A DNA stretch of 64,000 nucleotides from a filamentous cyanobacterium ESFC-1 (GTDB taxonomy: Bacteria > Cyanobacteriota > Cyanobacteriia > Cyanobacteriales > Spirulinaceae). A program made the position numbers and the translations under genes. Where the stretch lies: assembly GCA_000380225.1 (NCBI GenBank), contig KB904823.1, positions 1-64,000 on the forward strand, written 5' to 3'. Position 1 is the first letter of the stretch; the number at the start of each line of letters is the position of its first letter. The notes beneath the pieces are model-generated. The model was not told where the DNA came from. It was given only the letters and a program-made list of their open reading frames with translations, and did not search any database. This document shows positions 8,501 through 24,792 of this stretch, in pieces.

Positions 8501-9550
8501 GGTGGCTTTGACGAATCCCGACAATGGTTTGCGGACTGGGAACGGTGTTTAAAAGCCTTCTCCCAAGGACAAAAAGGGGCAACTCTCCCCGAATTTCTCG
8601 ATGGCTACCGTTCTACAAATCGCACAACACCGCTTATCGCTCCTCAACACCATACCGCAGCCCAAGCCGAAATCCAAACCATTCAATCTCGCTACTCCCA
8701 ATCTTTTACCCATTCCCATTCACCTCAGATTATTCCCGAAAACCCCTTACAACAACTACAATTTCGCTTCAATCTTTCACTCCAAAATTTAAACAGTACG
8801 CAAAAACATCTCCTACTATTCTGTCCCGATTTAGACAATAACGATTTAAGCCGTTGGCATTGCGAATTAGTGCAGCAGTTAGCACAACAAAACTACGAAA
8901 TTACAATTGCAACCACCACAAAATCTTCTCATACCCTACAAGAGTTTTTCTATCAATCTACTCCTAGCATCTTTCATCTACCCCATTTATTCACTCCTAC
9001 TTATTGGTTAGCCTTTACTCGTTACCTCATTCGTTCGCGTAATATTAACTTACTACTCATTTCTAATAGCGAAATTGCTTATTATTTTTTACCCCTTTTA
9101 CGAGCAGAGTTTCCGCAGTTATCCCTGGTAAGTTACCATTCAACAGCATTGAATATTCTGCCGCCTTCATTACTAAATCAATACAGCCGATTTTTAGATT
9201 ACCAACTGGCTGCTTCTCATGAGAAACTGCATCATATCGCAGCAAATACACAACAAAGTTTTGAGACTTCATCGGGTTTTCCCAAACAAATGATTTGTAC
9301 GCATCAAAACGAAGTAACTGATATTCTCGAAACAGCAATTTCTACTTCTCAACTCTATTCTGATAGCGAATCTACCCCTGAAGATCAACAGAAACATTTA
9401 CTCGCTTTATCTCAATATATCCAACAGAGACAAAGTAGTATCACCCCCCTAGAACCCACTACTAATCAACCTTCCTCTCCCCCAGAACCTTCTGTCAAAG
9501 AACTCCTCAAACTTCTACTCAAAACCGCAATCAAACGACTCTCTCCATGA
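5525..9550 (+). CDS. Four-module glycosyltransferase: GT4, two degenerate GT2 modules, truncated GT4
   Basis: Residues about 30-440 are a GT4 (GT-B fold) transferase with NGGIGTYYRVLSEKL near the start, FFGRLEERKG and the Ex7E motif ENFPHTALE; this module looks active. Residues about 455-690 and 815-1060 are GT2 domains whose metal-binding motifs are lost (LPLRGDR, and FLDLGS where an active relative has FIDLDD). Residues about 1090-1240 match only the N-terminal half of a GT4. The second half of the protein parallels, stretch by stretch, the 762-residue transferase at 27824, so it is an eroded duplicate. A Gln/Trp-rich coiled coil (about 695-790) ends in KFWKLRDRWFKLKSKL, a motif also closing the 27824 protein. 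Its stop overlaps the sulfotransferase start by 4 bp, so they are co-translated. Likely cytoplasmic or membrane-associated glycan assembly. Confidence 0.9.
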   Translation: MPSNYKNLLASNCEIRLQTHLQPTLDSTAQKVAVLVTNEFAGITKNGGIGTYYRVLSEKLNTEGWTVILLLCQTQQIFKGETPFESIHHIFSTAETTDSLSLQPFQQQILQQCNRTFNYESYACFFWIAAFSHHFADAVIYSEFPEIWGLGYRTIQAQKSGYLPNRCLVGVTAHGSFEWLREGNSRYFLEEPQWFWQAYHYEQFSLENADLACTPSRFLAQKYKSYGYKTDNLKHLPYFIPVLLNSLTSESPTSTSDYISLVFFGRLEERKGLLTFVQAVQSLPTEITSQLQIYFLGKVVPLQSPKLSQMNSQEYIEKELGYLDVRIESQYSRENAFKFLQTLDRPIICLTSEQENFPHTALEMGQLPLTLVVAKAAGWQEAFLLVQRQEQVYWFDPGSITALTDTLIQVIQNRPSSPKVAEIATLEQVNTSLLNQRLELMSQAFLDNTPKPPQTPKVAIALVLWQTSPTLTECLESIAQQTYDNLEVVVLSSDAEDITGSLAQIQTQFPQFKYLTAAASLSLGEAYNYLIGQIESDYILPLRGDRTLSEDAISTLVTALTHSNSAIAVSPSYQAESGQINLIDGNLLNLLELPFSHDLTALFSAEFLRQFPYNTERNLQALHWQIFAAALIADIAITYYPYPLYCIHANNPAITDKTRLKERYYLHQYLSQIEPQRWHKRSLHLLLTGFEQLRQTPVVATSPQNQAWHLTAQQLYQELSQTQTQLTHLQSWNQQLQASTEWLESQWQSWLLRSQKAEWEWQKYATFWQEVQYSKFWKLRDRWFKLKSKLGLSSNDFLSTVTPTPTVPGIQTFISRIAGQKIRFFTPQPPDTPIVSLISTCDDDLDVIETTYRSIINQTLQSFEWLIVADNSAPEATQALLAALPQRTPKIRLITPSQPQNQAASYNQALTQAQGQYLCFLDLGSILDPTYLEKSVLFLETHPQISLVNAHSIVFQGQEHWWTASLAQPQSILTQKGIWSHPLYRHRDFSNLGGFDESRQWFADWERCLKAFSQGQKGATLPEFLDGYRSTNRTTPLIAPQHHTAAQAEIQTIQSRYSQSFTHSHSPQIIPENPLQQLQFRFNLSLQNLNSTQKHLLLFCPDLDNNDLSRWHCELVQQLAQQNYEITIATTTKSSHTLQEFFYQSTPSIFHLPHLFTPTYWLAFTRYLIRSRNINLLLISNSEIAYYFLPLLRAEFPQLSLVSYHSTALNILPPSLLNQYSRFLDYQLAASHEKLHHIAANTQQSFETSSGFPKQMICTHQNEVTDILETAISTSQLYSDSESTPEDQQKHLLALSQYIQQRQSSITPLEPTTNQPSSPPEPSVKELLKLLLKTAIKRLSP

Positions 9551-10938
9551 ATCAAAACCCCAAACAAGTTTTAGTTTTAATTGATTATTATCGCCAAGCC
9601 CTCAAAATCAATCCTAATAATTATTCTCTGTATGACAAAGTTGCTCGCCTTTATTATGAAATCGGGGAATTCAATCTTGCCGGGCAAGTATGTAAAGCTG
9701 CTCTACAACAAAATTCTGACTGGGAATTAACAATTTTACCTTCGTTGTTAGAAAAAATGGGTTTAGCAGATAACAACAGCCAGTTTCTCCAGTATGTTTA
9801 TGGTACTACTAGCCTCAAAACCCAAATAGCTTCTAACTCCAGTATGTCTGTAATAGAAGTATTCAAACTATTTGAAGAAGACGACCCAGCAAAAGCCATT
9901 AATACTTGTTTTGACCTAATTCAAAATCATCCAATACTAGAATGGCCGCACTCACTATTAAATCGTCAACTCATAATGCGTCACAACACAGCCGATTTTT
10001 TAGACAAAATTATTGGCTTTTACGAATCTATTTTACAGCGACCTCCTATTTTACCAACTGCTTATATCGTATTCGGTAATGCCCTCACCCAAAAAGGTAA
10101 AATTGTTGAAGCTATTACGGCTTTTCAAGCGGGAATAAACCAAAAAATTTATTTCAATAAATATCATCCTCAATATTATTACAACATACCAAAACGCTCT
10201 CAAGTGGATTTCCTAATTATTGGGATTGGTAAGGGAGGAACAAGTGCAGTCTATCGCTATCTATCTCAACACCCCAAAATTTTAAGTGCTTCTCAAAAAG
10301 AATTACATTTTTTTAACCAAAAATTTGAACTCGGTATAGATTGGTACTTAGCCCAATTTCCTCAACTTCCACAAGGTAGCAAATATTTAACCGGAGAAGC
10401 CACTCCCTGGTACTTAGCCAGCCACGGAGTTGCAGAGAAAGTCTATCAAACCTTTCCCCATATTAAATTAATTGCTCTGCTCCGCAATCCTGTCACGAGA
10501 GCCGTTTCTCATTATTACATGGCTCGTAAATTAGGACGAGAAAAACGTTCCCTAGAAGTCGCCTTAAATTCCGAACTTGCTATCCTGTCCCAAACATCCA
10601 GTTTTGACGAAATTACTGCTCAATATTGGTCAACAGAGCGAGGCTACTTATTGTTGGGTCTGTACATTCATTTTATCCAGAAATGGCTCAAACTGTTTCC
10701 ATCAGAACAACTTTTAATCCTGCGTAGCGAAGACCTTTATCGCCATACAGACACCACCTTACAACAAATTTATCACTTCTTAGATATTCCCGAACATTCT
10801 TTAAAAAGCTATCCCAGATATAATGCCAATTCTTATCCTAAAATTAGCAGCGGACTTTATCAAAAACTGGCTACTTTTTTCCAACCTCATAACCAAAAAC
10901 TAGAGAGTTACTTAGGTCGGTCTTTTGACTGGGAGTGA
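9547..10938 (+). CDS. TPR-sulfotransferase (copy 1)
   Basis: Residues 1-200 are helical TPR-like repeats (first unit YRQALKINPNNYSLYDKVAR). Residues about 215-455 are a PAPS-dependent sulfotransferase domain of the heparan-sulfate/Sulfotransfer_1 type: 5'-phosphosulfate loop GIGKGGTSAVYRYLSQHP, acceptor-side FTGEATPWYL-like segment (LTGEATPWYL), and the 3'-phosphate-binding LLRNPVTRAVSHYY. The loop reads KGGTS instead of the KCGTT of the two paralogues at 19361 and 23521. All three end with YxxLxxFFQPxNQxLExYLGRxFDW. Expected role: O- or N-sulfation of a sugar in the glycan built by the neighbouring transferases. It overlaps the preceding gene by 4 bp. Confidence 0.92.
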   Translation: MNQNPKQVLVLIDYYRQALKINPNNYSLYDKVARLYYEIGEFNLAGQVCKAALQQNSDWELTILPSLLEKMGLADNNSQFLQYVYGTTSLKTQIASNSSMSVIEVFKLFEEDDPAKAINTCFDLIQNHPILEWPHSLLNRQLIMRHNTADFLDKIIGFYESILQRPPILPTAYIVFGNALTQKGKIVEAITAFQAGINQKIYFNKYHPQYYYNIPKRSQVDFLIIGIGKGGTSAVYRYLSQHPKILSASQKELHFFNQKFELGIDWYLAQFPQLPQGSKYLTGEATPWYLASHGVAEKVYQTFPHIKLIALLRNPVTRAVSHYYMARKLGREKRSLEVALNSELAILSQTSSFDEITAQYWSTERGYLLLGLYIHFIQKWLKLFPSEQLLILRSEDLYRHTDTTLQQIYHFLDIPEHSLKSYPRYNANSYPKISSGLYQKLATFFQPHNQKLESYLGRSFDWE

Positions 10939-11291: not shown

Positions 11292-13586
11292 CTATGCCAA
11301 TAAATCTAGAGCATAATATTTTTTAGCACATTTTTGTATATCTACTAACTCCCGCCATTCGTTAGACCCTACTTGTGATACTGCTTTCTTAAATTCTAAA
11401 CTTGCCCGTTCCAATTGTGCAGTATGAATAAAATACATCACTTTAGCCGCCATAATATTAGCTTGCATTCGTTTGGGAGTAATTTCCAGAGAATAACTAA
11501 ACGCGGCTTCTACTTCGTCTTGCGAAAAATCTTTAATCGACCAATTAGTGATTAAAAGATAGTCAGGTATTTGTTTAACACAGCGAAAACCTCTTGAAGA
11601 ATACATGAAAGGATGTTCAGTTGGAACTAAATAATCTCGCAAACGATACATCATTAAATGAATCCAAGAAGTATAGAAATGAGCAAAATCTTGATGAATA
11701 ATGATAGAAACATTAGGAATTAATGCCGGAAAGAAATTCTGCTTAATGCTATTGGCTAATTCAAAAGATTTCATAGCGTCAATAAATAAAAACTCAATTT
11801 GATTTTGATTCCAACCTATTTGAGTCAAATCGCCAGGGTGAACTTGAATTAAGTGTTGCCAAAATTTAATACGGCTTAAATATTCCTCTAAAAAACTTTC
11901 TCCTTCCCTATACTTTCCTTCTACAGAAGTACCTATTACACTTTGATTCATATTAGCAGATTCACACCAAATAAAAAGATCGTAAGCATGAATACGCTTA
12001 TTTTTATTACTGACTTTATAACTCTTTTCTAATCCTTTTGCTAAAGAAATAGTTGACGACCCTAACCAGCATCCCAACTCAACAATTTCGCCTTGACCGG
12101 AGTAGTGATTTCGAGCATAGTCTTCGAGAAAAAGCTGTTCTTCCATTGAAGTCATACCTAATATCCATTCTCTGGCTTGACTTGAATTTGGTTGAGTCGC
12201 AGGTGATATTTCTAGTGAATTGAAAGTCTGCTTCATGTACTCCCATCTTTGATTCAGCAAGCGTTTATTAACATCATGCAAAAACTCCGGTTTTGGTGTA
12301 TCTATAACTTCTGGGGGTTTGGAAATAGCCTGGGTGATTGCTTTAGCTAAAGTATTGGCATTTTCAGGAGTAAACCAATATAAACCCGATTGACGCTTAA
12401 TCAAATTCAACGTTTCTTGAAATCCTCCTGTATCCGCAACAACCAAACGAATCGGGAGTTGTCCCATTTCTAAAGCTGTATTAGGGAAATTTTCTTGATG
12501 GCTGGTTAAACAAACAATCGGAGAGTTTAAATCACGAATAAAATTAATTGCATCTCGACTGAATAAGTTATCAATCGCGCTATATTTCCAGTTTTTTCCA
12601 ATTGTGTTTTCTATATATCGATGGCTGTCTATATATTTCAATCCTTGTCCTTGTAAGGTGACATTTTTTCCTAAAAAGATAACCTGAACTTTTTTAGCAA
12701 TATTCGGAGCGATTAGTTGTAGTGCTTTTATAAAAGTCAAAAAGCCTTTCCTTTCTTCCAAGCGACCGAAAAATACTAAAGGAATTCTGTCTGGGGGAAC
12801 AATTTGTTGTAACTCTTTTTGAGGTGTTGGTATTTTTGACATAGATTCAAGCACTGAAAAGCAGAAGGGAAGATGTAAACTATGTGTGGTTTTCCAACCA
12901 TACTGCTCTACTTTTTTCTTGAGGAAATACGATAAAAAGAACGCAAGGTCGGCATTTTCAAAGCAATATTGCTCGTAATGACGAGTTTGCCAAAACCAAT
13001 GAGGCACAGTAGAAACATACTGATTGTGGGCTTCGTTCATCCATTCTTGACTGCTATGTAATGTTACCGCCGTGATGCAGTTTTTCGATAAAATACCAGC
13101 TTGTTTGGCTTGGATAGTGCGATATCCTAAACCCAGCATTTCGGGAAATTCGATATAAATATAAGCATTACTAAAAAGTTGTGTAAATGCTTGAACAAAA
13201 AATAAAGTGCAGTAGTTTTGATACTCGATTTGTGATGTTTGCTGAAGCTGTAATAGCAGGCTTTCTTGTTGTGAAGATAAATCGAGAAATTCCGAACATT
13301 CACCTAAAGAAAAAGTATGCTCGATTGCTGTTCCAGTCGATTTACCGCCAAATTTCTGATGGGTTTGAGCTAGAAGTAAAATGGTATAAAATCCTGCTGC
13401 TGTTAACTTTTCGCTGAGAGTGCGATAGTATGTGCCAATCCCCCCATTACGGGTAATGCCTTCATATTCTGGGGTAACTAATAAGGCGACTTGCTGCGGT
13501 TTGGGTGATGGGTTAATTGTTTGTGGTACTCGAAACTTTAGCTCTGATTGATTGAGGGAAAAAGCAAAAGATTGAGTCTTATTCAT
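11292..13586 (-). CDS. GT4 glycosyltransferase fused to a class I SAM methyltransferase
   Basis: About 764 residues. Residues 30-440 are a GT4 transferase nearly collinear with the first module of the 5525 protein (NGGIGTYYRTLSEKL, FFGRLEERKGFLTF, ENFPNTALEMGQLP). Residues about 470-700 are a class I SAM-dependent methyltransferase with motif I EIVELGCWLGSS and the acidic strand EFLFIDAMKSFE, resembling CmcI/methyltransferase-24 enzymes that O-methylate sugars or small molecules. The last 60 residues look TPR-like. I chose ATG 13586 (MNKTQSFAF), preceded by AGAGAACC; the frame also opens at 13634. It probably adds a sugar and caps or decorates it by methylation. Confidence 0.88.
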   Translation of the reverse strand: MNKTQSFAFSLNQSELKFRVPQTINPSPKPQQVALLVTPEYEGITRNGGIGTYYRTLSEKLTAAGFYTILLLAQTHQKFGGKSTGTAIEHTFSLGECSEFLDLSSQQESLLLQLQQTSQIEYQNYCTLFFVQAFTQLFSNAYIYIEFPEMLGLGYRTIQAKQAGILSKNCITAVTLHSSQEWMNEAHNQYVSTVPHWFWQTRHYEQYCFENADLAFFLSYFLKKKVEQYGWKTTHSLHLPFCFSVLESMSKIPTPQKELQQIVPPDRIPLVFFGRLEERKGFLTFIKALQLIAPNIAKKVQVIFLGKNVTLQGQGLKYIDSHRYIENTIGKNWKYSAIDNLFSRDAINFIRDLNSPIVCLTSHQENFPNTALEMGQLPIRLVVADTGGFQETLNLIKRQSGLYWFTPENANTLAKAITQAISKPPEVIDTPKPEFLHDVNKRLLNQRWEYMKQTFNSLEISPATQPNSSQAREWILGMTSMEEQLFLEDYARNHYSGQGEIVELGCWLGSSTISLAKGLEKSYKVSNKNKRIHAYDLFIWCESANMNQSVIGTSVEGKYREGESFLEEYLSRIKFWQHLIQVHPGDLTQIGWNQNQIEFLFIDAMKSFELANSIKQNFFPALIPNVSIIIHQDFAHFYTSWIHLMMYRLRDYLVPTEHPFMYSSRGFRCVKQIPDYLLITNWSIKDFSQDEVEAAFSYSLEITPKRMQANIMAAKVMYFIHTAQLERASLEFKKAVSQVGSNEWRELVDIQKCAKKYYALDLLA

Positions 13587-13619
13587 AATTCTGGTTCTCT
13601 CTACCACTACGCTACACCA

Positions 13620-13645
13620 TAGTAGGGTGGGCATCGCCCACCATT
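13620..13645. repeat. Short palindromic intergenic repeat
   Basis: GGTGGGC-AT-CGCCCACC is a short perfect palindrome of a type scattered through cyanobacterial intergenic DNA; it sits just upstream of the GT4-methyltransferase gene. Confidence 0.45.
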
Positions 13646-13703: not shown

Positions 13704-13934
13704 TTACGCGACTTGAGAGTTACGATTTTGCGGGATAGGGATGGTTCGATTTTGCGCTCGATATTCGTCTTTGCACATCTCCCATGCCGTCTGCAATTCT
13801 TCGAGGGCTTCTTGGGGGGTGTCTCCAAAGGCAGAAATACTGGGAATTTCTTGAAAATAGGCTAACCAGTCTCCTTGTTCGTCAAGGTATAAACCGAGGA
13901 CAAATCCATCAAAATTATAGTTTTCAAGAGTCAT
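13704..13934 (-). CDS. HicB-like antitoxin domain protein
   Basis: A 76-residue protein with the partial-RNase-H-like HicB fold: strand FVLGLYLDEQGDWLAYFQEIP, then SAFGDTPQEALEELQTAW, a typical HicB core. HicB proteins inactivate HicA RNA-cleaving toxins. No HicA gene is present on either side, so this is an orphan. Its ATG is preceded by AAGGAGAACC and lies inside the 3' end of the XisI remnant (TAATG arrangement). Confidence 0.75.
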   Translation of the reverse strand: MTLENYNFDGFVLGLYLDEQGDWLAYFQEIPSISAFGDTPQEALEELQTAWEMCKDEYRAQNRTIPIPQNRNSQVA

Positions 13935-14028
13935 TATTCTGGTTCTCCTTGGTATTGAACAAACTGTTGAACTTGAAACGAGTGAGAAGGTTTTGAATTG
14001 CGGCTCGATATTGTTCTACTTTATCCAT
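13924..14028 (-). pseudogene. XisI N-terminal remnant
   Basis: ATG at 14028 starts MDKVEQYRAAIQNLLTRF, the typical first 18 residues of XisI (fdxN element excision controlling factor family, about 110 residues). It then departs from the family and stops after 34 residues. In the next frame the same DNA reads VQQFVQYQGEPE and stops at TAATG, the start of the HicB-like gene. The likely history is a deletion joining the 5' end of xisI to the 3' end of another small gene. Confidence 0.6.
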
Positions 14029-14067
14029 TTTGTAATTATCTCTTTAACCGGATCGTAAACAATTTAA

Positions 14068-17000
14068 TTAATTTGTTCCTTTTTGAAAAATTAGATTAAA
14101 AATTTGATTGGTGAAGGCTAGAGGTTGGTTAATGTTGGTTTCAATGAAATACGGCTTTAAAAGTTCTTCCTCTTTGGATACCGGATAGAGTTGCCGCATT
14201 TCTTCTGAGTCCCCATCAGCTACTAATATTTCCTCTAGATTAGAGCCTAATGTCAGTTCAAATTCATGATAGCTCACTGCATTACCCCAACGAATCAAGC
14301 TGTTTTTTGCGAGTTGTTTGGTTCGGCTTTTGAGACTCTTTTCAATTGCTAATTTAAACTGTTCTCTCGGAGAAAATTTGTAATATTCTACTGCTAAATC
14401 TAAAGGCAAGAAATGAAAGAAAGGCAACCTGGAAGTATGATAGTCGTAGTAGGTTAGACGATTGGGGGTTTCAGCTATAATCAGGATTCCCCCTGGCAGG
14501 AGAAGCTCCCAGCAGAGCTTTAATGTTTCTAGTCTCTCCTGTATGGTCGTATGTTCTAATACAGCAAACAGTAAAATAACAGAGACTCCCGAAGAATGGT
14601 TTGATTTTATGGTTTCGAGTAAGGATTCTGGCTGCTCTTGGATAACGGAAACGTTGTTGATTCCCATGATTTTCATTCTTTCTTTGGCTGCGAGAGCCGA
14701 AGTTTTATCCACTTCGTAGGCATAAATATATTTGGAAAAATGAGCAAAAGCAGCAGTGCTTGAACCTGTACCGCAACCAACTTCAATGATTTCTTGATCG
14801 CTCAAGTCTAAGACTTTTGTGACCCAAGGAAGATAATAAGTTAAAGTTTTTTGGTATCGTCGAAAAACATGATCCTGAACATCATTATTAATTTCTTCTT
14901 TTGGTGGTTTTTTATCCTTTATTTGATCGAGAAAATTATAGTAAGTTTGATATAGCATGGCTTCAACTTCAACTTGCCACTTTGTTTCAGAGAGGTACTT
15001 CTCTATATCGAGTTTCTTACTAGAAACGATGTAAGGCTTGTCACTATTGGTTTCTGGTCTTTTTTTTTTGCTAACTTCACCTTTTTCCCCTTCTGCTATC
15101 TGCCCTCTGCCTTCTGCCTTCGGAAGCTTCCTACCCTGTTGGAGTTCCAAAACGCGACGATAGTATTGACTGGCGGCGCTGAGTTGGTTTTGTTGGGCTA
15201 AAAGGTCGCCCAGGTGTTCGTAAATGGAGCTGTGGTGGGGGTTGAGTTCTAGGGCTTTTTCGTAAGCGATGACGGCTTCTGCGTCCCGTTTGACCTGTTC
15301 TAGGGTTTGACCCAAGGCGAGATAGAGTTGCCAGTGGGGATGGCTTTCTAGGGCGGTTTGATAGGTGGTAATGGCTTCTTCTGGGCGGTTTTGTCGGGTT
15401 AGGGTTTGACCGAGTTGGAGGCGGAGTTGGAGGTTATCGGGTTGCAGGGTGAGGGCTTGGCGGTAAAGGTCGAGGTTGTCGGGTTGGTGGTTGATGCGGT
15501 GGCGATAGTAGTTGAAGAGTCCTGCTTGGCCTTGGGTTTCTTGGAGGTAGAGTTTGAGGTGGTGGAGTTCGCTTTGGGTTTGGTGCAGTTGGCTTTGAAG
15601 TTGGTCAAAGTGTTGTTTGGCCTGGGTTTGGAAATGTTGCAGGGTTTGGCGATATTGTTCTATCGCTTCGGGTTGGGTTGATTTTTTGGGGTGCAGGGGG
15701 TCGAGTTTTTCGGCGATGAGTTCCGGGGTGAGGGGGTCGTAGGTGTAAGGTTCGGTTTTGATGAGGGTTACACCGTCACCACTGGGTTTTTCGCCGAGAA
15801 TATAGCGGTGATAAAAGTCATCTTCCACCGCATAGAGTTCGAGGGTTTCGGACTGTGCGGATTCTCGGTAGCCGAAGTGAGTTAGGGTGTTTTGCGGGGC
15901 AATTAAACAAGTAAATGCGACTCGTTCTTGGTGTTGGGTGTTGGAGGATGCACCATGAAAGAGCCGTTTGTCATAAAGGATGGCTTGTCCGGCTTTCAGG
16001 GGGATAGGGGTGAGATAGTTGTCTTCGATGAGGGAGGCAAGGGTTGAGTTATAAGGGAAGGGAGAAAAGGGGTAAAAGGGACGGGGTTTTGAGTTGAGGT
16101 GGTGGCTACCTTTAACCACAGAGAGACAGCCGTTTTCAGGGGTTACGTCGGTTAAAGGACACCAAATTCCATAGGATCGGGTGTCGGTTTCGTCGGTTAA
16201 GGAGGGGTCTTGGTGGAGTTGGGTGGCGTTGGTGGAGGAGTTCGGAGATTTGCGATACCAGGTGCAGAAGGCGGTTCGATAACCGGGGAGGGTTGTGGGT
16301 AATTTGGTAGAGACGATGGAGGTGAGTTTTTGATTGACTTGCTGGCGGTAAGATAAGTCAGATGTGTTAATGGTTGTGCCGTTGGCGATGTCTTCTGGTT
16401 GGGGGTGGGTAGAGTCGAATTCCCGTAAGTCTTGCAGTTCGGCTTCACTCAAGAAGTTATTGAGAATGACATAGCCGTTTTCTTCCAGTTCTTGCTGCAT
16501 TTGTGGGGTAAGAATGGTGGAAGTTTTGGGTTGAGTAGCAGGAAGATTGAGTAAGCGACAACGAGCTAAGGCTTCTACACAGAATCCGGTTGTGAGAGCT
16601 TCTGAACCGAAAAGTTTCCGATCGGCTTGACCGCCATACAGGGGAATTCTTTGCCAAGAACCATTAGCTTGTTGAGTATTAAGCAAGAACTGAATCGCTC
16701 GATCTAGACTAGGCACAATATGGTTAAAATTCAGTAACGTACAGATTGCTAAAGCTGTTAATAGTTCGTCGCCAAAAGACCCATCTGCTTTTTGCAGATT
16801 GGCAATTTTATTAAGAATCGGTGTTTTCGTGAGTTTTAGGGATGTCACCCCGTTAAAGTATGCCCTAGACACCATGTAATAAAGACTTAGAGGATGGTCA
16901 TAAAATGAAAGACTAGCCTCTTCTTTATTGTCCAGAATAATATCAACTAAATATTGAAGGGTTTTCTCGGTGCGTTTGTCTTCACCCAAGTATAGTAAAA

Positions 17001-18738
17001 CATTAGAATTGACAACAGAACAAATATCGTCTGGGTCTGTAAGCTGCCAAATTTCATCGGAATGGGGTAGGGCTTGACTAAAAGTGATTAGGTTTAGGAC
17101 TATGCTGGGAATTGAACGAGGCAATAACCAAGTATAGAAAATTCCTTGATGGTTTCTATTGCCGAGAATAATTCCTTGATTGTTCGGGACTAGGATATTA
17201 TTGATTTTCAAAAGATGGGAGATGCAGCAAATATCATCTAAGTCTGGGGGGATAATTTTTTGCTGCTCATTTTTAGCCGACCAGTATTTCCAAAGTCCAC
17301 CGAATATCATCTCATTCTTTAAGAAGACTAGCCCCTTTTGAGTCAGGTTTTGAACTTGGGGTTCGGTTTTTAAGAAATTTAACGAGTAAAGAATCAAGGA
17401 AGTGGCGAAATTACTACTATCAAAGTTCCAATCTTCCTGCTGTTGGTCATTTTTGTATTTGCGATCGAACTCTATTACAAATTCCCCATCCTCTAGCTGG
17501 TTGTTCGTCAAAAAATCAACAGCCCGAACTAGACTCCGTTCTAAGTCATTGGTAGGCTGTGATAGGAAAGTTGTGGGTTGAGGTTGAGTGTCAGTTATCT
17601 CAACAGTTTGGTGTGATTGAGAAACATTCATTTTGGCTAAGTTCAGTTTGATTTGGCGGATGGAGACCAGTACCCTCTGCCGAATGGCAGGGTAAAATAA
17701 GGCAGTATGCACCCCTAGTAGAATGAGAAAAGTCGGTTGGTGAAGCGATAGTAGGATTAATAAACTCAGAGGCAACCACACCTCATAAAAATCGTGCAGA
17801 ATGATATAAGACTTTTCCGGGGGAGACGGATTCAACTCATTCTGTCCCATAAGAAGCAGCATCAAACCGTAAGCAGCGCAAGGAACGAGAAAGAAGGGGG
17901 AAGATTGAGCAATAACTAGAACCAGTGCGGTTGATAAAATCGCTTCGAGGGGAAAGACAATGGAATTAATCCAAAATCGCAGCGTTCCCGCTCCTAACTT
18001 GGTAGCGAGGGTTTGAATACCTGATTTCAAATCGTTCTCTCGATCCCAAATTTGATGTAGTAAAATCCCTCGAATTCCCACCGCAAATGCCCAAGTTGTG
18101 GCGATGATTGCCCATAAATTATTACTAGGTGAAGACGGAACGGCTAAGTTAGCAAAAACCGTCGCTACCAGCAACGTCGGCACAGCATGAACCGTAGCAG
18201 CATCAGCAACTGCACCGAAAACAAATCGTTCTTTGAGTCGCAGAGGTGGGGCAGGATAAACGGTTAATAATAGATAGATGGCAGCCAGCAAAATGCCGGA
18301 AGTTGGGTTAAAGCCAATCCACCACCAAGGAATTAAACCGAGAACGGCTAAACTGAGACTTACTCCCGTCCGTTGTCCCCTGGAAAGGGATGCCATTCGA
18401 TTCGGTTTACCCGCTTTTTTATCGACCTCAATATCAAAAATGTCATTCACCACATGACCGTAAGCAGCAACACAGAACATGGAGACGGTGAGCGCGAGTA
18501 GGGTGGTGAAGGACGGGTGAGGGGGGATATCTTGGGTTAGGATTTCAGCATAAGCAATGGCGAGTAATGGGGGGATTTTATAGAACCACCAATCTTGACC
18601 GCGAAGTAAGTTGAAAAGCGATCTAATGTTTTTCTTAGTTCTAGGATTTTTCTTGATTTCTTCAGGTTGTTCCTCTTTCATGAATTTGATAAGCTCTGTC
18701 TCAGTTAATGTATATTTTTCATGCTCTAGAACCTTCAC
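14068..18738 (-). CDS. Five-domain fusion: UbiA prenyltransferase, terpene-cyclase-like toroid, PhyH dioxygenase, TPR, methyltransferase
   Basis: 1556 residues. Residues 40-365: UbiA membrane prenyltransferase with both Asp-rich motifs (NDIFDIEVD at 98-106, DREND at 232-236) and about eight membrane helices. Residues 400-730: alpha/alpha toroid of the prenyltransferase/squalene-cyclase class with QW-like units (QLEDGEF, QKADGSF, QQANGSW) and two DxDDIC motifs (499 and 568), DxDD being the catalytic acid of class II terpene cyclases. Residues 745-960: phytanoyl-CoA dioxygenase-like Fe(II)/2-oxoglutarate domain with HQD (842-844), distal FHGASS and ERVAF. Residues 1020-1060 coiled coil, 1080-1200 TPRs, 1300-1450 class I methyltransferase (EVGCGTGSS). 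A low-complexity stretch (1202-1226) comes from an intergenic-type tandem repeat. GTG at 18738 overlaps the preceding gene by 4 bp. Probable prenyl transfer, cyclisation, hydroxylation and methylation on one chain; product unknown. Confidence 0.88.
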   Translation of the reverse strand: MKVLEHEKYTLTETELIKFMKEEQPEEIKKNPRTKKNIRSLFNLLRGQDWWFYKIPPLLAIAYAEILTQDIPPHPSFTTLLALTVSMFCVAAYGHVVNDIFDIEVDKKAGKPNRMASLSRGQRTGVSLSLAVLGLIPWWWIGFNPTSGILLAAIYLLLTVYPAPPLRLKERFVFGAVADAATVHAVPTLLVATVFANLAVPSSPSNNLWAIIATTWAFAVGIRGILLHQIWDRENDLKSGIQTLATKLGAGTLRFWINSIVFPLEAILSTALVLVIAQSSPFFLVPCAAYGLMLLLMGQNELNPSPPEKSYIILHDFYEVWLPLSLLILLSLHQPTFLILLGVHTALFYPAIRQRVLVSIRQIKLNLAKMNVSQSHQTVEITDTQPQPTTFLSQPTNDLERSLVRAVDFLTNNQLEDGEFVIEFDRKYKNDQQQEDWNFDSSNFATSLILYSLNFLKTEPQVQNLTQKGLVFLKNEMIFGGLWKYWSAKNEQQKIIPPDLDDICCISHLLKINNILVPNNQGIILGNRNHQGIFYTWLLPRSIPSIVLNLITFSQALPHSDEIWQLTDPDDICSVVNSNVLLYLGEDKRTEKTLQYLVDIILDNKEEASLSFYDHPLSLYYMVSRAYFNGVTSLKLTKTPILNKIANLQKADGSFGDELLTALAICTLLNFNHIVPSLDRAIQFLLNTQQANGSWQRIPLYGGQADRKLFGSEALTTGFCVEALARCRLLNLPATQPKTSTILTPQMQQELEENGYVILNNFLSEAELQDLREFDSTHPQPEDIANGTTINTSDLSYRQQVNQKLTSIVSTKLPTTLPGYRTAFCTWYRKSPNSSTNATQLHQDPSLTDETDTRSYGIWCPLTDVTPENGCLSVVKGSHHLNSKPRPFYPFSPFPYNSTLASLIEDNYLTPIPLKAGQAILYDKRLFHGASSNTQHQERVAFTCLIAPQNTLTHFGYRESAQSETLELYAVEDDFYHRYILGEKPSGDGVTLIKTEPYTYDPLTPELIAEKLDPLHPKKSTQPEAIEQYRQTLQHFQTQAKQHFDQLQSQLHQTQSELHHLKLYLQETQGQAGLFNYYRHRINHQPDNLDLYRQALTLQPDNLQLRLQLGQTLTRQNRPEEAITTYQTALESHPHWQLYLALGQTLEQVKRDAEAVIAYEKALELNPHHSSIYEHLGDLLAQQNQLSAASQYYRRVLELQQGRKLPKAEGRGQIAEGEKGEVSKKKRPETNSDKPYIVSSKKLDIEKYLSETKWQVEVEAMLYQTYYNFLDQIKDKKPPKEEINNDVQDHVFRRYQKTLTYYLPWVTKVLDLSDQEIIEVGCGTGSSTAAFAHFSKYIYAYEVDKTSALAAKERMKIMGINNVSVIQEQPESLLETIKSNHSSGVSVILLFAVLEHTTIQERLETLKLCWELLLPGGILIIAETPNRLTYYDYHTSRLPFFHFLPLDLAVEYYKFSPREQFKLAIEKSLKSRTKQLAKNSLIRWGNAVSYHEFELTLGSNLEEILVADGDSEEMRQLYPVSKEEELLKPYFIETNINQPLAFTNQIFNLIFQKGTN
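15085..15123. repeat. Heptamer-like short tandem repeat inside a coding region
   Basis: TGCCCTCTGCCTTCTGCCTTC is the CTGCCTT-type short tandem repeat usually found between cyanobacterial genes. Here it lies in frame between the TPR and methyltransferase domains of the fusion gene and encodes a Lys/Glu/Gly-rich linker. Confidence 0.65.
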
Positions 18739-19280
18739 TGGTTTAAACTGGTCAAATAATGCTGCTGCATCAATGACACGGTTTGCGGGTCACAATTTGA
18801 GCCTGTATAAACAAAGTGAGGTCTTGGGCTTGAGGTAATTAGATGACTTTTTTCAACAACTTGAAGACAGCCTTGTTGTTCATCAACATCAATCAGGGGA
18901 CACCAAATCGTCAAAGATTGATGTCGCGTTTCATCTACTATAGAGGGGTCTTGATGTAGCGGTATGGGAGGAGAGTTTTGTGGTTTGTAGATAAAAATGC
19001 AATTAACGATTTTATAATCGGGAAAAAGAGTTTCTATTTTGGAATTCAAGCTACTTTTAAGTTTTTGAGTAACCTGTTCTCTATACTGCCTCTGCGAACT
19101 GGAATCACTGCGATACAGATAAGGACTATCTGTTACCGCATCTTCGGGAAAAGGGGTTTCTTGATAAAGTTTAAGTAGATGTTGTACCTCTTCTCGATTC
19201 AGGAAATTAGAGACTGTATATCCTTTTCGCTCAAGACCTGGTTTTAAACTCAGGTTATTAACGCTTTGACTATAAAACAT
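18735..19280 (-). CDS. C-terminally truncated phytanoyl-CoA dioxygenase-like protein
   Basis: 181 residues related to the dioxygenase domain of the downstream fusion: GYTVSNFLNREEVQHLLKLY near the start, HQDPSIVDETRHQS with the first His and Asp of the iron site, then IWCPLIDVDEQQGCLQVV. It stops at QQHYLTSLNQ, exactly where its relative continues with the strand carrying the distal iron His and the 2-oxoglutarate-binding Arg. No other frame restores that part. As it stands it cannot make a complete Fe(II) site, so it is either inactive, a partner subunit, or a decaying duplicate. The stop overlaps the GTG of the fusion gene by 4 bp. Confidence 0.8.
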   Translation of the reverse strand: MFYSQSVNNLSLKPGLERKGYTVSNFLNREEVQHLLKLYQETPFPEDAVTDSPYLYRSDSSSQRQYREQVTQKLKSSLNSKIETLFPDYKIVNCIFIYKPQNSPPIPLHQDPSIVDETRHQSLTIWCPLIDVDEQQGCLQVVEKSHLITSSPRPHFVYTGSNCDPQTVSLMQQHYLTSLNQ

Positions 19281-19360
19281 CCTGTCCCCTTTTCTTTACT
19301 CCTCCTGCTAGTATCAAATTACTCAAGATTTGTCAATCCTGACCAACAGCCAGATTGCCA

Positions 19361-20620
19361 ATGCCCACCCAGTCCCACACCCAAGCCGTCCTCAACCACT
19401 ACCAAAAAGCCTTAACCTTCTCCCCTCAACCCGCGAAAATCCAAGCAAGCATCGCGGCTCTTCACTGGACGCTCTGGGATATGCCCCAGGCAATGGAACA
19501 TTACCTCCAAGCTCACAGGCTCAATCCCCAGGCACAATGGCATCACTGGCGCTTATACTTCGGCCTGCAACACCTGGCTCGTCTCGAATCCCCCAGACTG
19601 CTGGAATTTTGCCAGCGCACCATCGATATCATCGAGCCAAACACGCCTCACTATCCCAATCGGGGTTTCACTGGCTTACTCCTCGCCACCGCCTATCGTT
19701 ACTCAGGAAAACCGGAACGCGCCCGAAATTTCCTCCATCACTCCTATCGTGCCATCCTAGCGCCCCATTATCCCGAACTCATCGAGAAGGCTTGGACAGA
19801 ACGACGACAGCACCCGCCCAACTTTCTCATCATTGGCGCGTGGAAATGCGGCACAACCTCGCTCTATCACTACCTGAGTCAACATCCCCAAATACTGCCC
19901 GCGATCGCCAAAGAACTGCGCTACTTCACAGGCGAAACCCATTGGCAGCAATCCGCAACTCACGCCGATTATCTCGATTATTTCCCACCCATCGACCATC
20001 CCGATTATCAAACCGGAGAAGCCACCCCCGGATACATCATTCAACCCCACCTCGCTCAGTATCTGCGCCAGCATTTTCCCCAGGTCAAAATCATTATCCT
20101 GTTACGCAATCCAGTCAAACGGGCGATCTCAGAGTTTTATCTGCGCCAAAGCCTCAATGACCCCACGTTTGCCCAAACCCTCGACGGCGTAACCCACATT
20201 GACTTAGCCAAAGTCGATGCCATAACCGACCAAACTTATACCGCCTTAAAAACAGAAGGTAACTGGCTGCAATCCTTGCTCAAACAGCAGGCAATTTATG
20301 AGACCGACATCAGCATAAATTTAGCCCGTAATTTAGCCTTTAGCCAGTATATTCGCTATCTTCCCCAGTGGTTTGAGCAGTTTCCTAGAGAACAGATTCT
20401 TCTTATTCGCAGCGAAGATTTATTTCAGAACCCTCCAGAGACCCTGCAACAGATTTACACCTTTTTAGGTCTGGAATATCACCCCTTACCGGAATATCGC
20501 AATGTGAATTGTCGGCAGTATAACGCGATTAGTCCAGAACTTTGTCAACAGCTTACGGCGTTTTTTCAGCCTGATAATGAACAACTCGAAGATTATTTAG
20601 GACGAAAATTTAACTGGTAG
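19361..20620 (+). CDS. TPR-sulfotransferase (copy 2)
   Basis: 419 residues: N-terminal TPR-like repeats (LNHYQKALTFSPQPAKIQAS), then a PAPS-dependent sulfotransferase domain from about residue 155 with the 5'-phosphosulfate loop IGAWKCGTTSLYHYLSQHP, TGEATPGYII, and the 3'-phosphate site LLRNPVKRAISEFYLRQS. C-terminus LEDYLGRKFNW as in the two paralogues. I chose ATG 19361 over the TTG at 19355. It is divergent from the dioxygenase/fusion operon and convergent with the FAAL gene. Role: sulfation of the exported glycan or lipid, by inference. Confidence 0.93.
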   Translation: MPTQSHTQAVLNHYQKALTFSPQPAKIQASIAALHWTLWDMPQAMEHYLQAHRLNPQAQWHHWRLYFGLQHLARLESPRLLEFCQRTIDIIEPNTPHYPNRGFTGLLLATAYRYSGKPERARNFLHHSYRAILAPHYPELIEKAWTERRQHPPNFLIIGAWKCGTTSLYHYLSQHPQILPAIAKELRYFTGETHWQQSATHADYLDYFPPIDHPDYQTGEATPGYIIQPHLAQYLRQHFPQVKIIILLRNPVKRAISEFYLRQSLNDPTFAQTLDGVTHIDLAKVDAITDQTYTALKTEGNWLQSLLKQQAIYETDISINLARNLAFSQYIRYLPQWFEQFPREQILLIRSEDLFQNPPETLQQIYTFLGLEYHPLPEYRNVNCRQYNAISPELCQQLTAFFQPDNEQLEDYLGRKFNW

Positions 20621-20644: not shown

Positions 20645-23407
20645 TTACGACCCACCCACCGATTCTAAACAAGCATTGAGCTTCCGGGCATACACCTCAA
20701 CATGAGGCGGATTGTGGTATGTGCCATGTCGTCCGGGAACCTTGACCACCTCAACCCCGCCCTCAACCCAATCATTCCAGCCTGACTGCTTCATCGGGTC
20801 GAACTGATACTCTCGCCCCTCCAAGTCATTGTCCATCTTAGAAAAGAAAACAACTCGCCCAAAATACATTTGCGGCGTTTGATGAATCCAAACCTGCTGG
20901 TTCGCCTCCATCACCTTGAGAATCGTCTCTACCTTCTGTGGACTTAACCCATACTCCGAAAATTGCTCCCGTTTCTTCTGTTTCCCCACCATTAGCCAGC
21001 GCTGCCAATGTCTTTCTCTCTGTTCCTCCGTCAAACAAGGATTCGGACTATCCATCATCACCACCAGCGATGCCAACTCCCCTTGACGCTGTAACTGCTG
21101 TGCCATTTCCAGGGCAACATTGCCACCTATACACATCCCCGCCAATAAATACGGGCCATGGGGCTGCACGGTTTGGATTTCGCGGATGTAGTGTGCTGCC
21201 ATATCTTCGATGCGAGTGAACGGGGCTTGTTGACCATCAAAACCGATCGCTCTCAAGCCATACAGCGGGCGATCGCAATCAAGTTGTTGCGCGAATAACG
21301 GACACAGGACATCGCCGCCAATGTGATGTACCAGAAACAACGGCGTTTTTGTCCCCTCTCGATGAATGGAAACAAGGGAACGAGATGAGGAAAAATCCCA
21401 GCGCGTTCGATAAATCAAACGGGTGAAGGCTTCTAGGGTGGGTGCTTCAGCAAAAGCACTGGGTTCTAGGGCAATGCCTAACTGTTCTAACTCAGCAATA
21501 ACGGTCATCGCCTTGAGGGAATTTCCACCCAACTCAAAAAAGTTATCCGTCTCCCGAACCGTAGGAACTTCCAACACCTGCCGCCAAATCTCTGTCATCC
21601 GCTCGCCAAAGAAATTGCCAGCAACCCTATCCACCGCCAAAGCCTCATCCTGTCCCCTCTCCCACCGGGCTAACTCCGCCAACTGCCCCGCTAAAAACCC
21701 CTGACGACAAGCCCGACGCTGAATCTTACCGCTCGAAGTCTTGAAAATGCTGCCCCGTTTGAGCAACACCACCGCCTGCATCGGCAACTCGAACTGTTCC
21801 GCCACTATCGATCGCACTGCCGCCAAAATCGCCTCCGGTTCGAGACTCCCAACCCTTTTCGCCTCACACTCCCACACCACCACCACGCGCTCCTCACCGT
21901 CCACTTCCACCGCAAACGCCGCCCCCGCATCAGGACGCAGTGCCGGATGACAACGCTCCACCGCCCACTCAATATCCTGGGGGTAATAATTTTCACCCCG
22001 AACAATAATCAAATCCTTCAACCGCCCAGTGACAAATAACTCACCCGCCCGTAAAAATCCCAAATCCCCCGTCCGTAAAAACCCGCCTGCTCCCGTATCC
22101 GCCAACACCGCCCCAAACGTCGCGTCCGTCTCCTCCTGACGCTGCCAATAGCCCCGCGCCACCCCCGCACTAGCCACCCAAATTTCCCCCACCTCATCCA
22201 CCCCACAGCGTCGCCCGGTCTCCGGGTTGACAATCTCCACCCGCGTCCCTGGCAATACTTGTCCGCAACTCATCCAGCGCCCCGATAACTCTGGTATTTC
22301 AACAGATACTGGCTCTTCTCCCTGGCGGCTCGTCGTCACCAACAACGTCGCCTCTGCCAACCCATAGGCGGGAGCAAACGTCTGTCGTTGAAACCCACAA
22401 CCCGCAAACGCTGCACAAAACTCATCTATCACGTCCGGGTTAATCGGTTCTGCGGCATTTCCCGCCGCTTGCCAACTGCTGAGGTCGAGGTCAGCACAAT
22501 CTTCTGGGGCAATGCGCCGCACGCAGTAGGCATAGGCAAAGTTCGGGGCTTGGCTGTGGGTGGCACGATAGCGAGAAATAGCGGCTAACCAGCGTAAGGG
22601 TCGTTTGATAAACGCGGTGGGGGACATGAAGTAACAGGGTGTGCCGTTATACAGGGGTAATAGCATCCCCTCGACTAAGCCGTAATCGTGGAAGTAGGGC
22701 ATCCAGGTGACGGTGATGCTCTCGGCGGTGTAGCCTCCGGCTTGCTGTAAGGCGACTAAATGCCCCATGAGGTTGTCGTGGTCGAGCATTACGCCTTTGG
22801 GGGTGGAAGTAGACCCGGAGGTGTATTGCAAGTAAGCCAGGGTGTCTCCGCGCAGAGTGGGGGTTTGCCATTGGTGGGCTAATTTGTCGGGAATTTTATC
22901 GGTGGCTATCCAGGGTAATGCTGCAAGCTGAGAATTTGGTTCGGTTACACTATTGGCGGTGAGACGATAATGTACGAATAAACAGGGTCTATGGTTGAGT
23001 TTTTGGACTCGGCTTTGGGCGGTAAATTGCCAGCCTTCTTGTTGCTGTAATACCCTTGTCGTCGTTAAGACTAATTTCGCTCCGGCATCGGCGGCAATGG
23101 CTTCTAATCGGGGCAATACTCGCTTGATTCGCGTGGTTTCGGGGGCTGGGGCAGGAATGGCGACGACTCCGGCGTAGAGACAGCCTAAGAGGGCGGTAAG
23201 GGCTTCGGTGCTTTGGGGGTAAAGGAGTAGGACTCGTTCTCCCATCGTACAATGGGCTTGGAGAAAGGACGCGATCGCCCTGGCTTTGGTATCAATTTCT
23301 CTGAGGGTGAGACTTTTGGACGGGGATTTGCCGTCTTTGAGAAAGGTGAAAATGGCAGTATCGGGGAATTGCAGGGCTTGTTGGCGTAAATGAGTAATAA
23401 GGGTCAT
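20645..23407 (-). CDS. Fatty acyl-AMP ligase fused to ACP and thioesterase (FAAL-ACP-TE)
   Basis: 920 residues. Residues 1-570: adenylate-forming enzyme of the FAAL type, with the ATP loop YTSGSTSTPKGVMLDH, the family motif PAYGLAEATLLVTT and TGDLGFL; FAALs load a fatty acid onto a carrier protein as an acyl-AMP intermediate. Residues about 600-670: acyl carrier protein, phosphopantetheine site FFELGGNSLKA. Residues about 690-915: type I thioesterase (alpha/beta hydrolase) with nucleophile elbow GMCIGG, Cys in place of the usual Ser, then MMDSPNP and the C-terminal HGTYHNPP His. A stand-alone FAAL-ACP-TE makes and releases (or transfers) an activated acyl chain, plausibly to acylate the glycan or terpenoid of this locus. 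Codon third positions are GC-rich compared with neighbours, suggesting separate acquisition. Confidence 0.93.
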   Translation of the reverse strand: MTLITHLRQQALQFPDTAIFTFLKDGKSPSKSLTLREIDTKARAIASFLQAHCTMGERVLLLYPQSTEALTALLGCLYAGVVAIPAPAPETTRIKRVLPRLEAIAADAGAKLVLTTTRVLQQQEGWQFTAQSRVQKLNHRPCLFVHYRLTANSVTEPNSQLAALPWIATDKIPDKLAHQWQTPTLRGDTLAYLQYTSGSTSTPKGVMLDHDNLMGHLVALQQAGGYTAESITVTWMPYFHDYGLVEGMLLPLYNGTPCYFMSPTAFIKRPLRWLAAISRYRATHSQAPNFAYAYCVRRIAPEDCADLDLSSWQAAGNAAEPINPDVIDEFCAAFAGCGFQRQTFAPAYGLAEATLLVTTSRQGEEPVSVEIPELSGRWMSCGQVLPGTRVEIVNPETGRRCGVDEVGEIWVASAGVARGYWQRQEETDATFGAVLADTGAGGFLRTGDLGFLRAGELFVTGRLKDLIIVRGENYYPQDIEWAVERCHPALRPDAGAAFAVEVDGEERVVVVWECEAKRVGSLEPEAILAAVRSIVAEQFELPMQAVVLLKRGSIFKTSSGKIQRRACRQGFLAGQLAELARWERGQDEALAVDRVAGNFFGERMTEIWRQVLEVPTVRETDNFFELGGNSLKAMTVIAELEQLGIALEPSAFAEAPTLEAFTRLIYRTRWDFSSSRSLVSIHREGTKTPLFLVHHIGGDVLCPLFAQQLDCDRPLYGLRAIGFDGQQAPFTRIEDMAAHYIREIQTVQPHGPYLLAGMCIGGNVALEMAQQLQRQGELASLVVMMDSPNPCLTEEQRERHWQRWLMVGKQKKREQFSEYGLSPQKVETILKVMEANQQVWIHQTPQMYFGRVVFFSKMDNDLEGREYQFDPMKQSGWNDWVEGGVEVVKVPGRHGTYHNPPHVEVYARKLNACLESVGGS

Positions 23408-23520: not shown

Positions 23521-24792
23521 ATGAACCTATCTAGTTCTACTTCAGTTAGTAGTGAGGAACAAACCCAAGCTCTCATCAAACACTATCAAAAAGCCCTCGT
23601 TATCAAACCTGACTCTGCCACAATTCATCAAGATATTGGGAATCTCTATCAAAGTTTATTTGATTTTGAACAAGCTGTCGCTTACTATCTCAAAGCTATC
23701 GAACTGAAGTCCGATCTTTTCCCAGCTTATTATCGACTTAAATTTATCCTAGAAAATACTGTTTGGTCAAATGAATATCAAAAAGGCGAAATTATCGAAA
23801 ATGGTATTCGTGTTCTCGAAAAAAATATCATCAACCAACCTCATTTCTTCTTCGCTTATGTCATTTTAGGCGAACTTTATGCCCAACAAGGAAAAATTGA
23901 AAAAGCTAAAGATTGTTATCAAAAAGCCAGCTTTGCACAAATTCAGCGTTTCTATCCTCACCTCAGCCAACATTGGGATTTTACAACAAAGCGCCAACCC
24001 GATTTTCTCGTAATTGGTTTATTCAAGTGCGGTACAACTTCTTTTTATCGTTATCTCACCCAACATCCACAAGTTTTACCAGCCGTTGCGAAAGAAATTC
24101 GTTACCTTTCTGGGGATACAGCCAACGACTTAGATTATTATCTTTCCCATTTTCCAGCAGTTTCCCATCCAAACTATTTTACCGGGGAAGCAACTCCAAG
24201 GTATTTTATACTTCCCAATATAGCTCAACAGATTAAAGATTGGTTTCCTGGCATTAAGCTTATTCTTTTGCTAAGAAATCCTATCAAACGAGCAATTTCT
24301 GGCTTCTATCATGGTAATCAATTTAGTTATCGATACTTAAACAAATCTCTTAATGACATTCGACGCTTAGATATAAACTTTATTCGAGAGAAAATTTTTG
24401 AAATCAAAAAAATGCAAAAACTCTCGCACTTTCAATGGCTCAAATTTTTAGCCAAAAAAAGTAAACAAAACTTAAAGATTAACGATGAAATTGCGTTTCA
24501 TATCGCTTTTAGTCTTTATATCAATTATCTCCCCGAATGGTTTGAGCATTTTCCTAAAGAACAACTCTTAATCCTTAAAAGCGAAGACCTCTTTACTAAC
24601 CCAGCAAGCACCATGAAACAAGCCTATAACTTTCTCGGACTTCCTGACCATCCTCTTAACGAATATCGCAACGCTAACCGCAATTCCTACCCTGATATCT
24701 CTCTTAGCTTATATCAGCAACTTACCGAGTTCTTCCAACCTTATAATCAGCAATTAGAAGACTATTTGGGTAGGAAGTTCGATTGGGAGTAG
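23521..24792 (+). CDS. TPR-sulfotransferase (copy 3)
   Basis: 423 residues with TPR repeats (IKHYQKALVIKPDSATIHQD, then a second unit FEQAVAYYLKAIELKSD) and a sulfotransferase domain from about residue 160: 5'-phosphosulfate loop IGLFKCGTTSFYRYLTQHP, TGEATPRYFI, 3'-phosphate site LLRNPIKRAISGFYHG. Ends LEDYLGRKFDWE. Clearly paralogous to the genes at 9547 and 19361. AT-rich compared with the FAAL gene it diverges from. PAPS-dependent transfer to a glycan acceptor is expected; acceptor unknown. Confidence 0.93.
   Translation: MNLSSSTSVSSEEQTQALIKHYQKALVIKPDSATIHQDIGNLYQSLFDFEQAVAYYLKAIELKSDLFPAYYRLKFILENTVWSNEYQKGEIIENGIRVLEKNIINQPHFFFAYVILGELYAQQGKIEKAKDCYQKASFAQIQRFYPHLSQHWDFTTKRQPDFLVIGLFKCGTTSFYRYLTQHPQVLPAVAKEIRYLSGDTANDLDYYLSHFPAVSHPNYFTGEATPRYFILPNIAQQIKDWFPGIKLILLLRNPIKRAISGFYHGNQFSYRYLNKSLNDIRRLDINFIREKIFEIKKMQKLSHFQWLKFLAKKSKQNLKINDEIAFHIAFSLYINYLPEWFEHFPKEQLLILKSEDLFTNPASTMKQAYNFLGLPDHPLNEYRNANRNSYPDISLSLYQQLTEFFQPYNQQLEDYLGRKFDWE

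Follow-up and report, generated by a model that had tools for sequence, protein, structure and literature searches.

In the merosterol pathway of cyanobacteria, a UbiA-like prenyltransferase followed by a cyclase resembling squalene-hopene cyclase (SHC) is an established pair, and oxidation is by P450s, according to PMC5618424. The tolypodiol cluster also contains ubiA (PMC8073705). We consider here a 64,000-nucleotide stretch of DNA from the filamentous cyanobacterium ESFC-1 (GCA_000380225.1, contig KB904823.1, positions 1 to 64,000; hereafter the window), in which a single open reading frame (ORF) of 1556 amino acids carries, in order, a UbiA prenyltransferase, a terpene-cyclase-like toroid, a PhyH dioxygenase, a coil, TPR units and a methyltransferase (Table 1).

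The merosterol pathway employs the same two kinds of enzyme in turn, and its cyclase MstE (PDB 6sbb-6sbg) is a monodomain class II enzyme. However, oxidation in the window would fall to PhyH; to our knowledge the merosterol enzymes are separate proteins that are not fused, and we know of no glycan export genes in that pathway. The best match of the toroid, both by sequence and by Foldseek, is AsDMS, a bacterial HAD-type drimenol synthase (9m7d-9m7f, 9mhs) with the same Asp pair and Tyr. Whereas the AsDMS cyclase is fused to a HAD phosphatase, the cyclase of the window is fused to UbiA, with no HAD domain among the 23 matches of a Pfam scan of the ORF. Solved relatives of the UbiA domain, namely digeranylgeranylglyceryl phosphate synthase (6m31) and chlorophyll synthase (9sau, 9sas), are distant and have no cyclase fusion. 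The surroundings resemble Wzm/Wzt surface-glycan export clusters, with the transporter pair, glycosyltransferases and sulfotransferases. What is new is the fusion and its glycan setting, while the enzyme kinds themselves and the separate UbiA/SHC-like pair were already known. As the original prediction had supposed, no described enzyme with this domain order turned up in the literature searched (titles and abstract openings); nor did a glycan export cluster with a terpene cyclase, or a UbiA-terpene cyclase fusion, for which the coverage of few subscription journals makes this weak evidence.

Domain architecture and proposed function

The ORF is real, and every domain named in the original prediction is present in it. 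It is not a product of chance, because Spirulina sp. CS-785/01 and Nostoc punctiforme NIES-2108 carry relatives with best-segment identities of 75% and 64%. The UbiA domain (PF01040, 81.5 bits against a gathering score of 34.2) carries both Asp-rich motifs, N98-D99-x-x-D102-x3-D106 and D232-x3-D236. N98, D102, D106, D232 and D236, together with YxxPPxRxK, are kept in 10/10 aligned UbiA sequences, and D99 is Asn in L035 and L043 (L and G numbers are our handles for loci and genomes). NCBIfam prenyltransferase models score far under their cut-offs on the UbiA proteins and give no subfamily. The toroid has QW-like units, one ending at W695 and weaker ones at 649 and 414, as well as the two DxDDIC motifs that had been noticed, D499-L-D501-D502-I-C and D568-P-D570-D571-I-C. 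In the dioxygenase (PF05721, 3.7e-20, 73.5 bits against a cut-off of 22) the HxD...H triad of H842/D844 and H928 is present along with R939, and Pfam also recovers the TPRs and the methyltransferase.

We propose, with moderate confidence, that this protein joins prenyl transfer, proton-initiated cyclisation and Fe(II)/2-oxoglutarate-dependent oxidation, and that its product serves an exported glycan. At the membrane, UbiA would take the prenyl group of a prenyl diphosphate and pass it to an acceptor. The toroid would then protonate the chain via D501, helped by D499 and Y613, so that rings close, and the PhyH domain, using Fe(II) and 2-oxoglutarate, would hydroxylate the cyclised product. Docking of partner enzymes is the probable role of the TPR part, and TPRs are likewise present in two of the three sulfotransferases of the cluster. 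The product most likely serves the exported, possibly sulfated surface glycan of the surrounding cluster, and the idea of a complete meroterpenoid assembly line overreaches in that the surroundings are a surface-glycan export cluster.

The toroid as a terpene-cyclase-like domain

The assignment of the toroid as a monodomain, class II terpene-cyclase-like domain is well supported, and its earlier reading as a cyclase held up, with class II cyclases ranking first both by sequence profile and by fold. A single-sequence phmmer search of the PDB gave drimenol synthase at 0.002, and a profile of 11 toroids gave drimenol synthase at 2.8e-14, SHC at 5.6e-12 (summed QW repeats, no single stretch being significant), AstC at 1.2e-6 and MstE at 0.0015-0.0036. 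The stand-alone toroid of L040 found drimenol synthase at 1.2e-6 and nothing else at E up to 1. SQHop_cyclase_C (PF13243) scores 19.3 bits on the toroid against a gathering score of 26.1, which is a library threshold and not a biochemical feature. Models of the window toroid (3 sequences; mean predicted local distance difference test score, pLDDT, 63.7) and of the Nostoc toroid (61.6) both had class II cyclases at the top of their Foldseek lists. In VIA-align, the window model matched SHC at Z 22.2 (root-mean-square deviation 3.8, 285 residues aligned), MstE at 22.1 (3.3, 269) and drimenol synthase at 21.7 (3.4, 267), with GH105 as the best non-cyclase at 16.6. Sequence was weighted over fold, since the models are poor in the middle of the toroid.

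The original prediction had named protein prenyltransferase beta and a lectin-like TPR array as the identities that would overturn a cyclase assignment, and neither is favoured. Protein prenyltransferase beta subunits bind Zn through Asp-x-Cys and His. D-x-C occurs twice in the window toroid, but only 8/14 toroids have a Cys at the position following DDI, and the best match of this family in the 11-toroid profile search, Rab geranylgeranyltransferase beta, reached a weak 0.045. Lectin-like or TPR-like matches to the toroid were absent from the Pfam, Foldseek, VIA-align and profile lists.

GH105 and epimerase toroids come after the cyclases in VIA-align (Z 15-16.6), and UbiA-family enzymes of the polyprenyl-phosphoribose kind occur in O-antigen clusters (PMC11127046). 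The UbiA domain could then be a polyprenyl-phosphoribose synthase of the three-component pentofuranose type, and the toroid a sugar-active (alpha/alpha)6 enzyme. We consider this very improbable, as the cyclase catalytic residues are kept, the toroid profile finds cyclases and not glycosidases, and the UbiA profile finds only digeranylgeranylglyceryl phosphate synthase and chlorophyll synthase in the PDB at E up to 1 (1.4e-8 and 6.2e-6). The NCBIfam results for five UbiA proteins, that of the window among them, include no phosphoribosyltransferase model, in a check that had no positive control.

Catalytic motifs and the order of reactions

Conservation was tabulated over 14 toroids from 10 genomes, a set that excludes G639, all fragments, weak ends and the distant relative L014. 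All 14 share D499, D501, Y613 and F444; the position of Y485 holds Tyr in 13 of them and Phe in the other. The phmmer, 11-toroid profile and L040 alignments each place the first motif on the DLDTT of drimenol synthase; the last of these is a single stretch (independent E-value 4.3e-6) that places PDLD on DLDT and RWY on RYY. AsDMS numbering was taken from the printed alignment, where the D333N chains show N. In AsDMS, variants of D331, D333 and Y427 lost all activity and D333 is the proton donor, as reported in PMC12365925. By alignment, the first motif is predicted to be the catalytic acid facing the cavity.

The second motif was not the second catalytic motif that had been suggested. It degenerates among relatives, with D568 being Asp in 3 toroids, D570 in 6 and D571 in 11, and a duplicate acid site was rejected on the conservation of D568 (3/14) against that of D499/D501 (14/14). 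It falls in the head-group loop of drimenol synthase, in which R378/R380 hold the pyrophosphate according to PMC12365925; the profile and L040 alignments differ by two residues here and the exact AsDMS partner is uncertain. The duplicate DxDDIC thus appears from the alignments to be a feature of a few relatives, and probably lines the pocket for the substrate head group.

AsDMS, the closest solved toroid, uses farnesyl diphosphate, and the toroid could conceivably cyclise a free prenyl diphosphate first, with UbiA then transferring the cyclic terpenyl group. The R-Y-Y of AsDMS 425-427 is kept in the Novosphingobium toroid, L040 has R-W-Y, and the acidic loop of the window could still hold a diphosphate through Mg2+. 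However, of the AsDMS diphosphate contacts (Y373, R378, R380, R425, Y426, R513), the window retains none of the five that align: Y373, R380, R425, Y426 and R513 are replaced by Trp, Asp, Ser, Phe and Ala, and R378 is not alignable. Of these five, only Y373 and Y426 were essential, and R380, R425 and R513 dispensable, in AsDMS (PMC12365925). We therefore think cyclisation before transfer rather improbable, and an MstE-like cyclisation after transfer would be likelier than that of a free prenyl diphosphate. At the position of AsDMS R425-Y426, 8/14 toroids have Ser/Ala/Pro-Phe; the tandem paralogues have Lys-Trp, Lys-Arg or Thr-Arg, L040 has Arg-Trp and Novosphingobium has Arg-Tyr. This variation suggests that head groups differ among toroids and that, in the clade of the window, transfer precedes cyclisation.

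Recurrence of the module

A single-protein search of the phylum matched 4/386 genomes, and the toroid profile matched 26/386. Most of the weak profile matches were C-terminal stretches in frames of ~640-690 residues, which are probably SHCs and were not counted as toroid members. A gene-order search returned 14/388 genomes, 7 of which have full-length toroid matches; the remainder consists of an intact ORF (G404), a broken one (G639), fragments (G145, G391, G423) and weak ends (G439, G070). In a search of plasmids 5 records matched, including Halocatena. Ten genomes have a toroid that is intact and full-length (window, L009, L010, G532, G504, G464, G482, G404, Nostoc C052, Novosphingobium), and in 9 of them UbiA is fused to it or nearby; both fusion orders occur. 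A plasmid of Nostoc sp. C052 encodes PhyH-UbiA-toroid-TPR, L037 has the reverse order of toroid-UbiA, and L035 and L043 carry a toroid-UbiA-toroid tandem. Split versions, which the original prediction had proposed to seek in other cyanobacteria, were found as separate UbiA, toroid and PhyH genes in L036 (with a toroid of 349 amino acids) and L042, and on a plasmid of the alphaproteobacterium Novosphingobium sp. RL4 toroid and UbiA are likewise encoded apart. In L039 (G639; 7354-9785 and 13945-16164, minus strand) a toroid-UbiA-TPR gene is broken into two frames, and a plasmid of Oscillatoria acuminata encodes a methyltransferase-UbiA-PhyH protein without a toroid. UbiA and the toroid form the unit that recurs, generally together with PhyH and either split or fused in both orders; the linkage of prenyltransferase, cyclase and dioxygenase seen in the window is borne out across relatives.

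To compare the neighbours of the module, the proteins of the window were searched against 14 fetched loci (12 genomes or records). Of these loci, 9 gave Wzt-like, 7 Wzm-like, 10 PhyH and 9 sulfotransferase matches; by Pfam, L068 has a sulfotransferase and two glycosyltransferases. A gene for a fatty-acyl-AMP ligase (FAAL), carrier and thioesterase is matched over its full length in L038 and L066, and in part in L009, L037 and L065.

An ordinary meroterpenoid pathway would account for the module differently. UbiA would C-prenylate an aromatic acid, an MstE-like cyclisation and PhyH oxidation would follow, and the glycan genes would be accidental neighbours. In merosterol making, UbiA-like and SHC-like enzymes did yield a cyclised meroterpenoid (PMC5618424). 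The best fold matches include MstE, a monodomain class II cyclase from cyanobacteria that has been crystallised with geranylgeranyl dihydroxybenzoate, and the FAAL-carrier-thioesterase gene is nearby in the window. Against such a pathway, Wzm/Wzt, glycosyltransferases and sulfotransferases recur around the module, Novosphingobium included, and the two solved proteins nearest to UbiA, digeranylgeranylglyceryl phosphate synthase and chlorophyll synthase, are O-prenylating enzymes. We regard a meroterpenoid pathway with chance glycan neighbours as unlikely, yet the strongest of the alternatives.

Several observations weigh against the function that we propose, a membrane prenyl transfer followed by cyclisation and oxidation in the service of a glycan. 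No UbiA gene was found near the L040 toroid in a 17-kb stretch, and UbiA is present without a toroid in L066 and L067, which makes cyclisation optional. Within the limited stretches of the 14 loci, Wzt was unseen in 5, PhyH in 4 and sulfotransferase in 5. No isoprenoid-precursor family was matched among the window ORFs scanned. The Novosphingobium toroid alone gave zero PDB matches at E up to 1, the D331/D333 stretch in the 11-toroid profile alignment has an independent E-value of only 0.028, and model pLDDT is <50 around the second motif and too low at the first motif to place it. The dispensability of R380, R425 and R513 in AsDMS means that their absence says little on the head group. Finally, of three printed SHC sequences just one has its DVDD on the first motif, at -1.6 bits, and the other two align it elsewhere; SHC was dropped as a second witness for that motif.

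Three related loci have features of their own. In L040 (G404), the stand-alone toroid (8071-9084, minus strand; PPDLDVT) has as its neighbours a YcaO cyclodehydratase, a cyanobactin-oxidase-like protein (ThcOx), an amine oxidase and an ABC transporter, and is possibly a terpene-cyclase-like step in a cluster for ribosomally synthesised and post-translationally modified peptides. A distant toroid relative with DTDD is fused behind a polyprenyl synthetase (PF00348, 1.1e-15) in L014 (G032; 1-1875, plus strand). On a plasmid of the methanotroph Methylomagnum ishizawai (L067), one cluster (7704-24673) combines genes for UbiA, polyprenyl synthetase, radical SAM, asnB, Wzm and Wzt with a methyltransferase, PhyH and an annotated sulfotransferase, and has no toroid match.

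The methyltransferase and its linker

Methylation had been counted as a step of the assembly line, and this part of the original prediction did not survive comparison with relatives. The methyltransferase (PF08242, 3.1e-9, 37.9 bits against a cut-off of 30; glycine-rich motif I GCGTG at 1321) is absent after the TPRs in 4/4 fusions of the same order (L009, L010, L038, L065; L037, the end of which runs into masked letters, was left out of the count). It was rejected as part of the core on the grounds of this absence and of its joining through a repeat-like linker, which together indicate that the fusion is probably recent, from a neighbouring gene, and need not imply a shared pathway. A separate gene in L038 is 71% identical to it over 312 amino acids, and the N-terminal part of an L065 glycosyltransferase is 68% identical over 315. 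That L065 protein matches the glycosyltransferase gene next downstream in the window and carries the window-type methyltransferase as its N-terminus, while the L010 glycosyltransferase retains just a short end of it.

Reading the linker by eye revealed no in-frame ATG, GTG or TTG. A DNA search found no copies of it elsewhere in the genome, and the term 'repeat-like' rests on reading its letters. A sequencing error in its A homopolymer could in principle create or break the methyltransferase fusion; the ORF was kept as real because the homologous methyltransferase stretch begins without ATG, GTG or TTG nearby. A different methyltransferase, unmatched by that of the window, is joined to UbiA in L039 and L066, and given these other fusions some methylation may still be part of the chemistry. 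In L039, an intact methyltransferase-UbiA-TPR gene stands beside the broken toroid-UbiA-TPR gene, and their C-terminal parts are nearly identical.

Genomic surroundings

The stop of the upstream PhyH ORF overlaps the GTG start of the 1556-amino-acid ORF by 4 bases. An N-terminal PhyH is fused to UbiA in L009, L010, L038 and L065, and the upstream ORF is its counterpart; since these relatives have PhyH at that place, it looks like a truncated remnant. The glycan cluster, with glycosyltransferases, three sulfotransferases, the FAAL-carrier-thioesterase gene, Wzt and Wzm, occupies the first half of the contig. The contig is probably a plasmid, because ParA-like, FtsK-like and CRISPR type I genes (Cas3, Cas_GSU0053) are found on its 64,875 bases; these, with a D5-like primase gene, lie in the remainder. 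In Oscillatoria acuminata a related cluster lies on a 64,128-base plasmid. The three sulfotransferase genes of the window share a 30-base conserved stretch, and TPRs are above Pfam cut-offs in two.

Table 1. Features of the fused ORF and its neighbours in the window.
Feature	Residues	Position	Strand	Basis or remark
Sulfotransferase with N-terminal TPR		9547..10938	+	
Glycosyltransferase + Methyltransf_24 gene, next downstream, same strand		11292..13634	-	Methyltransf_24 25.2 bits, cut-off 26.3
Whole ORF, 1556 amino acids		14068..18738	-	GTG start
Methyltransferase	1240-1556	14071..15021	-	Pfam about 1313-1423
Linker	1203-1235	15034..15132	-	AAGGCAG units that look repeat-like, plus an A homopolymer; read by eye
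TPR units	about 1088-1200	15139..15477	-	Pfam
PhyH Fe/2-oxoglutarate dioxygenase	752-939	15922..16485	-	Pfam; H842, D844, H928
Monodomain class II terpene-cyclase-like toroid	about 397-735	16534..17550	-	Profile and fold
Y613	613	16900..16902	-	Aligns with AsDMS catalytic partner Y427; 14/14
Second motif, D568-P-D570-D571	568-571	17026..17037	-	In AsDMS head-group loop (R378/R380), within about two residues
First motif, D499-L-D501-D502	499-502	17233..17244	-	Aligns with AsDMS D331/D333
UbiA prenyltransferase domain	72-300	17839..18525	-	Pfam, 7.7e-23
Upstream ORF, 181 amino acids, C-terminally truncated PhyH		18735..19280	-	HxD kept, stops short of distal His
Sulfotransferase		19355..20620	+	
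Fatty-acyl-AMP-ligase-like + carrier + thioesterase gene		20645..23407	-	
Sulfotransferase with N-terminal TPRs		23521..24792	+	
Wzt-type ABC ATPase with Wzt_C domain		24840..26201	-	
Wzm-type ABC-2 permease		27007..27723	-	

Implications for terpene cyclisation and surface glycans

The module is a clean case of domain shuffling, with split genes, both fusion orders and a methyltransferase shifted between neighbours. A cyclase chained to a membrane prenyltransferase would couple prenyl transfer to ring closure, making a natural bifunctional catalyst. Recurrence of the two enzymes next to glycan exporters, in cyanobacteria and in an alphaproteobacterium, ties terpene cyclisation to cell-surface glycans, and the inside of an exported surface sugar cluster is an unexpected place for terpene ring-making. 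A broader idea, which we put forward tentatively and think doubtful, is that at least two phyla place ring-bearing, oxidised, sulfated terpenoids on an exported surface glycan or lipid anchor by means of a module of UbiA and a monodomain class II cyclase, mostly with PhyH and sometimes in one polypeptide. If true, these would form a class of terpenoid-modified glycans that has no description in the literature searched.

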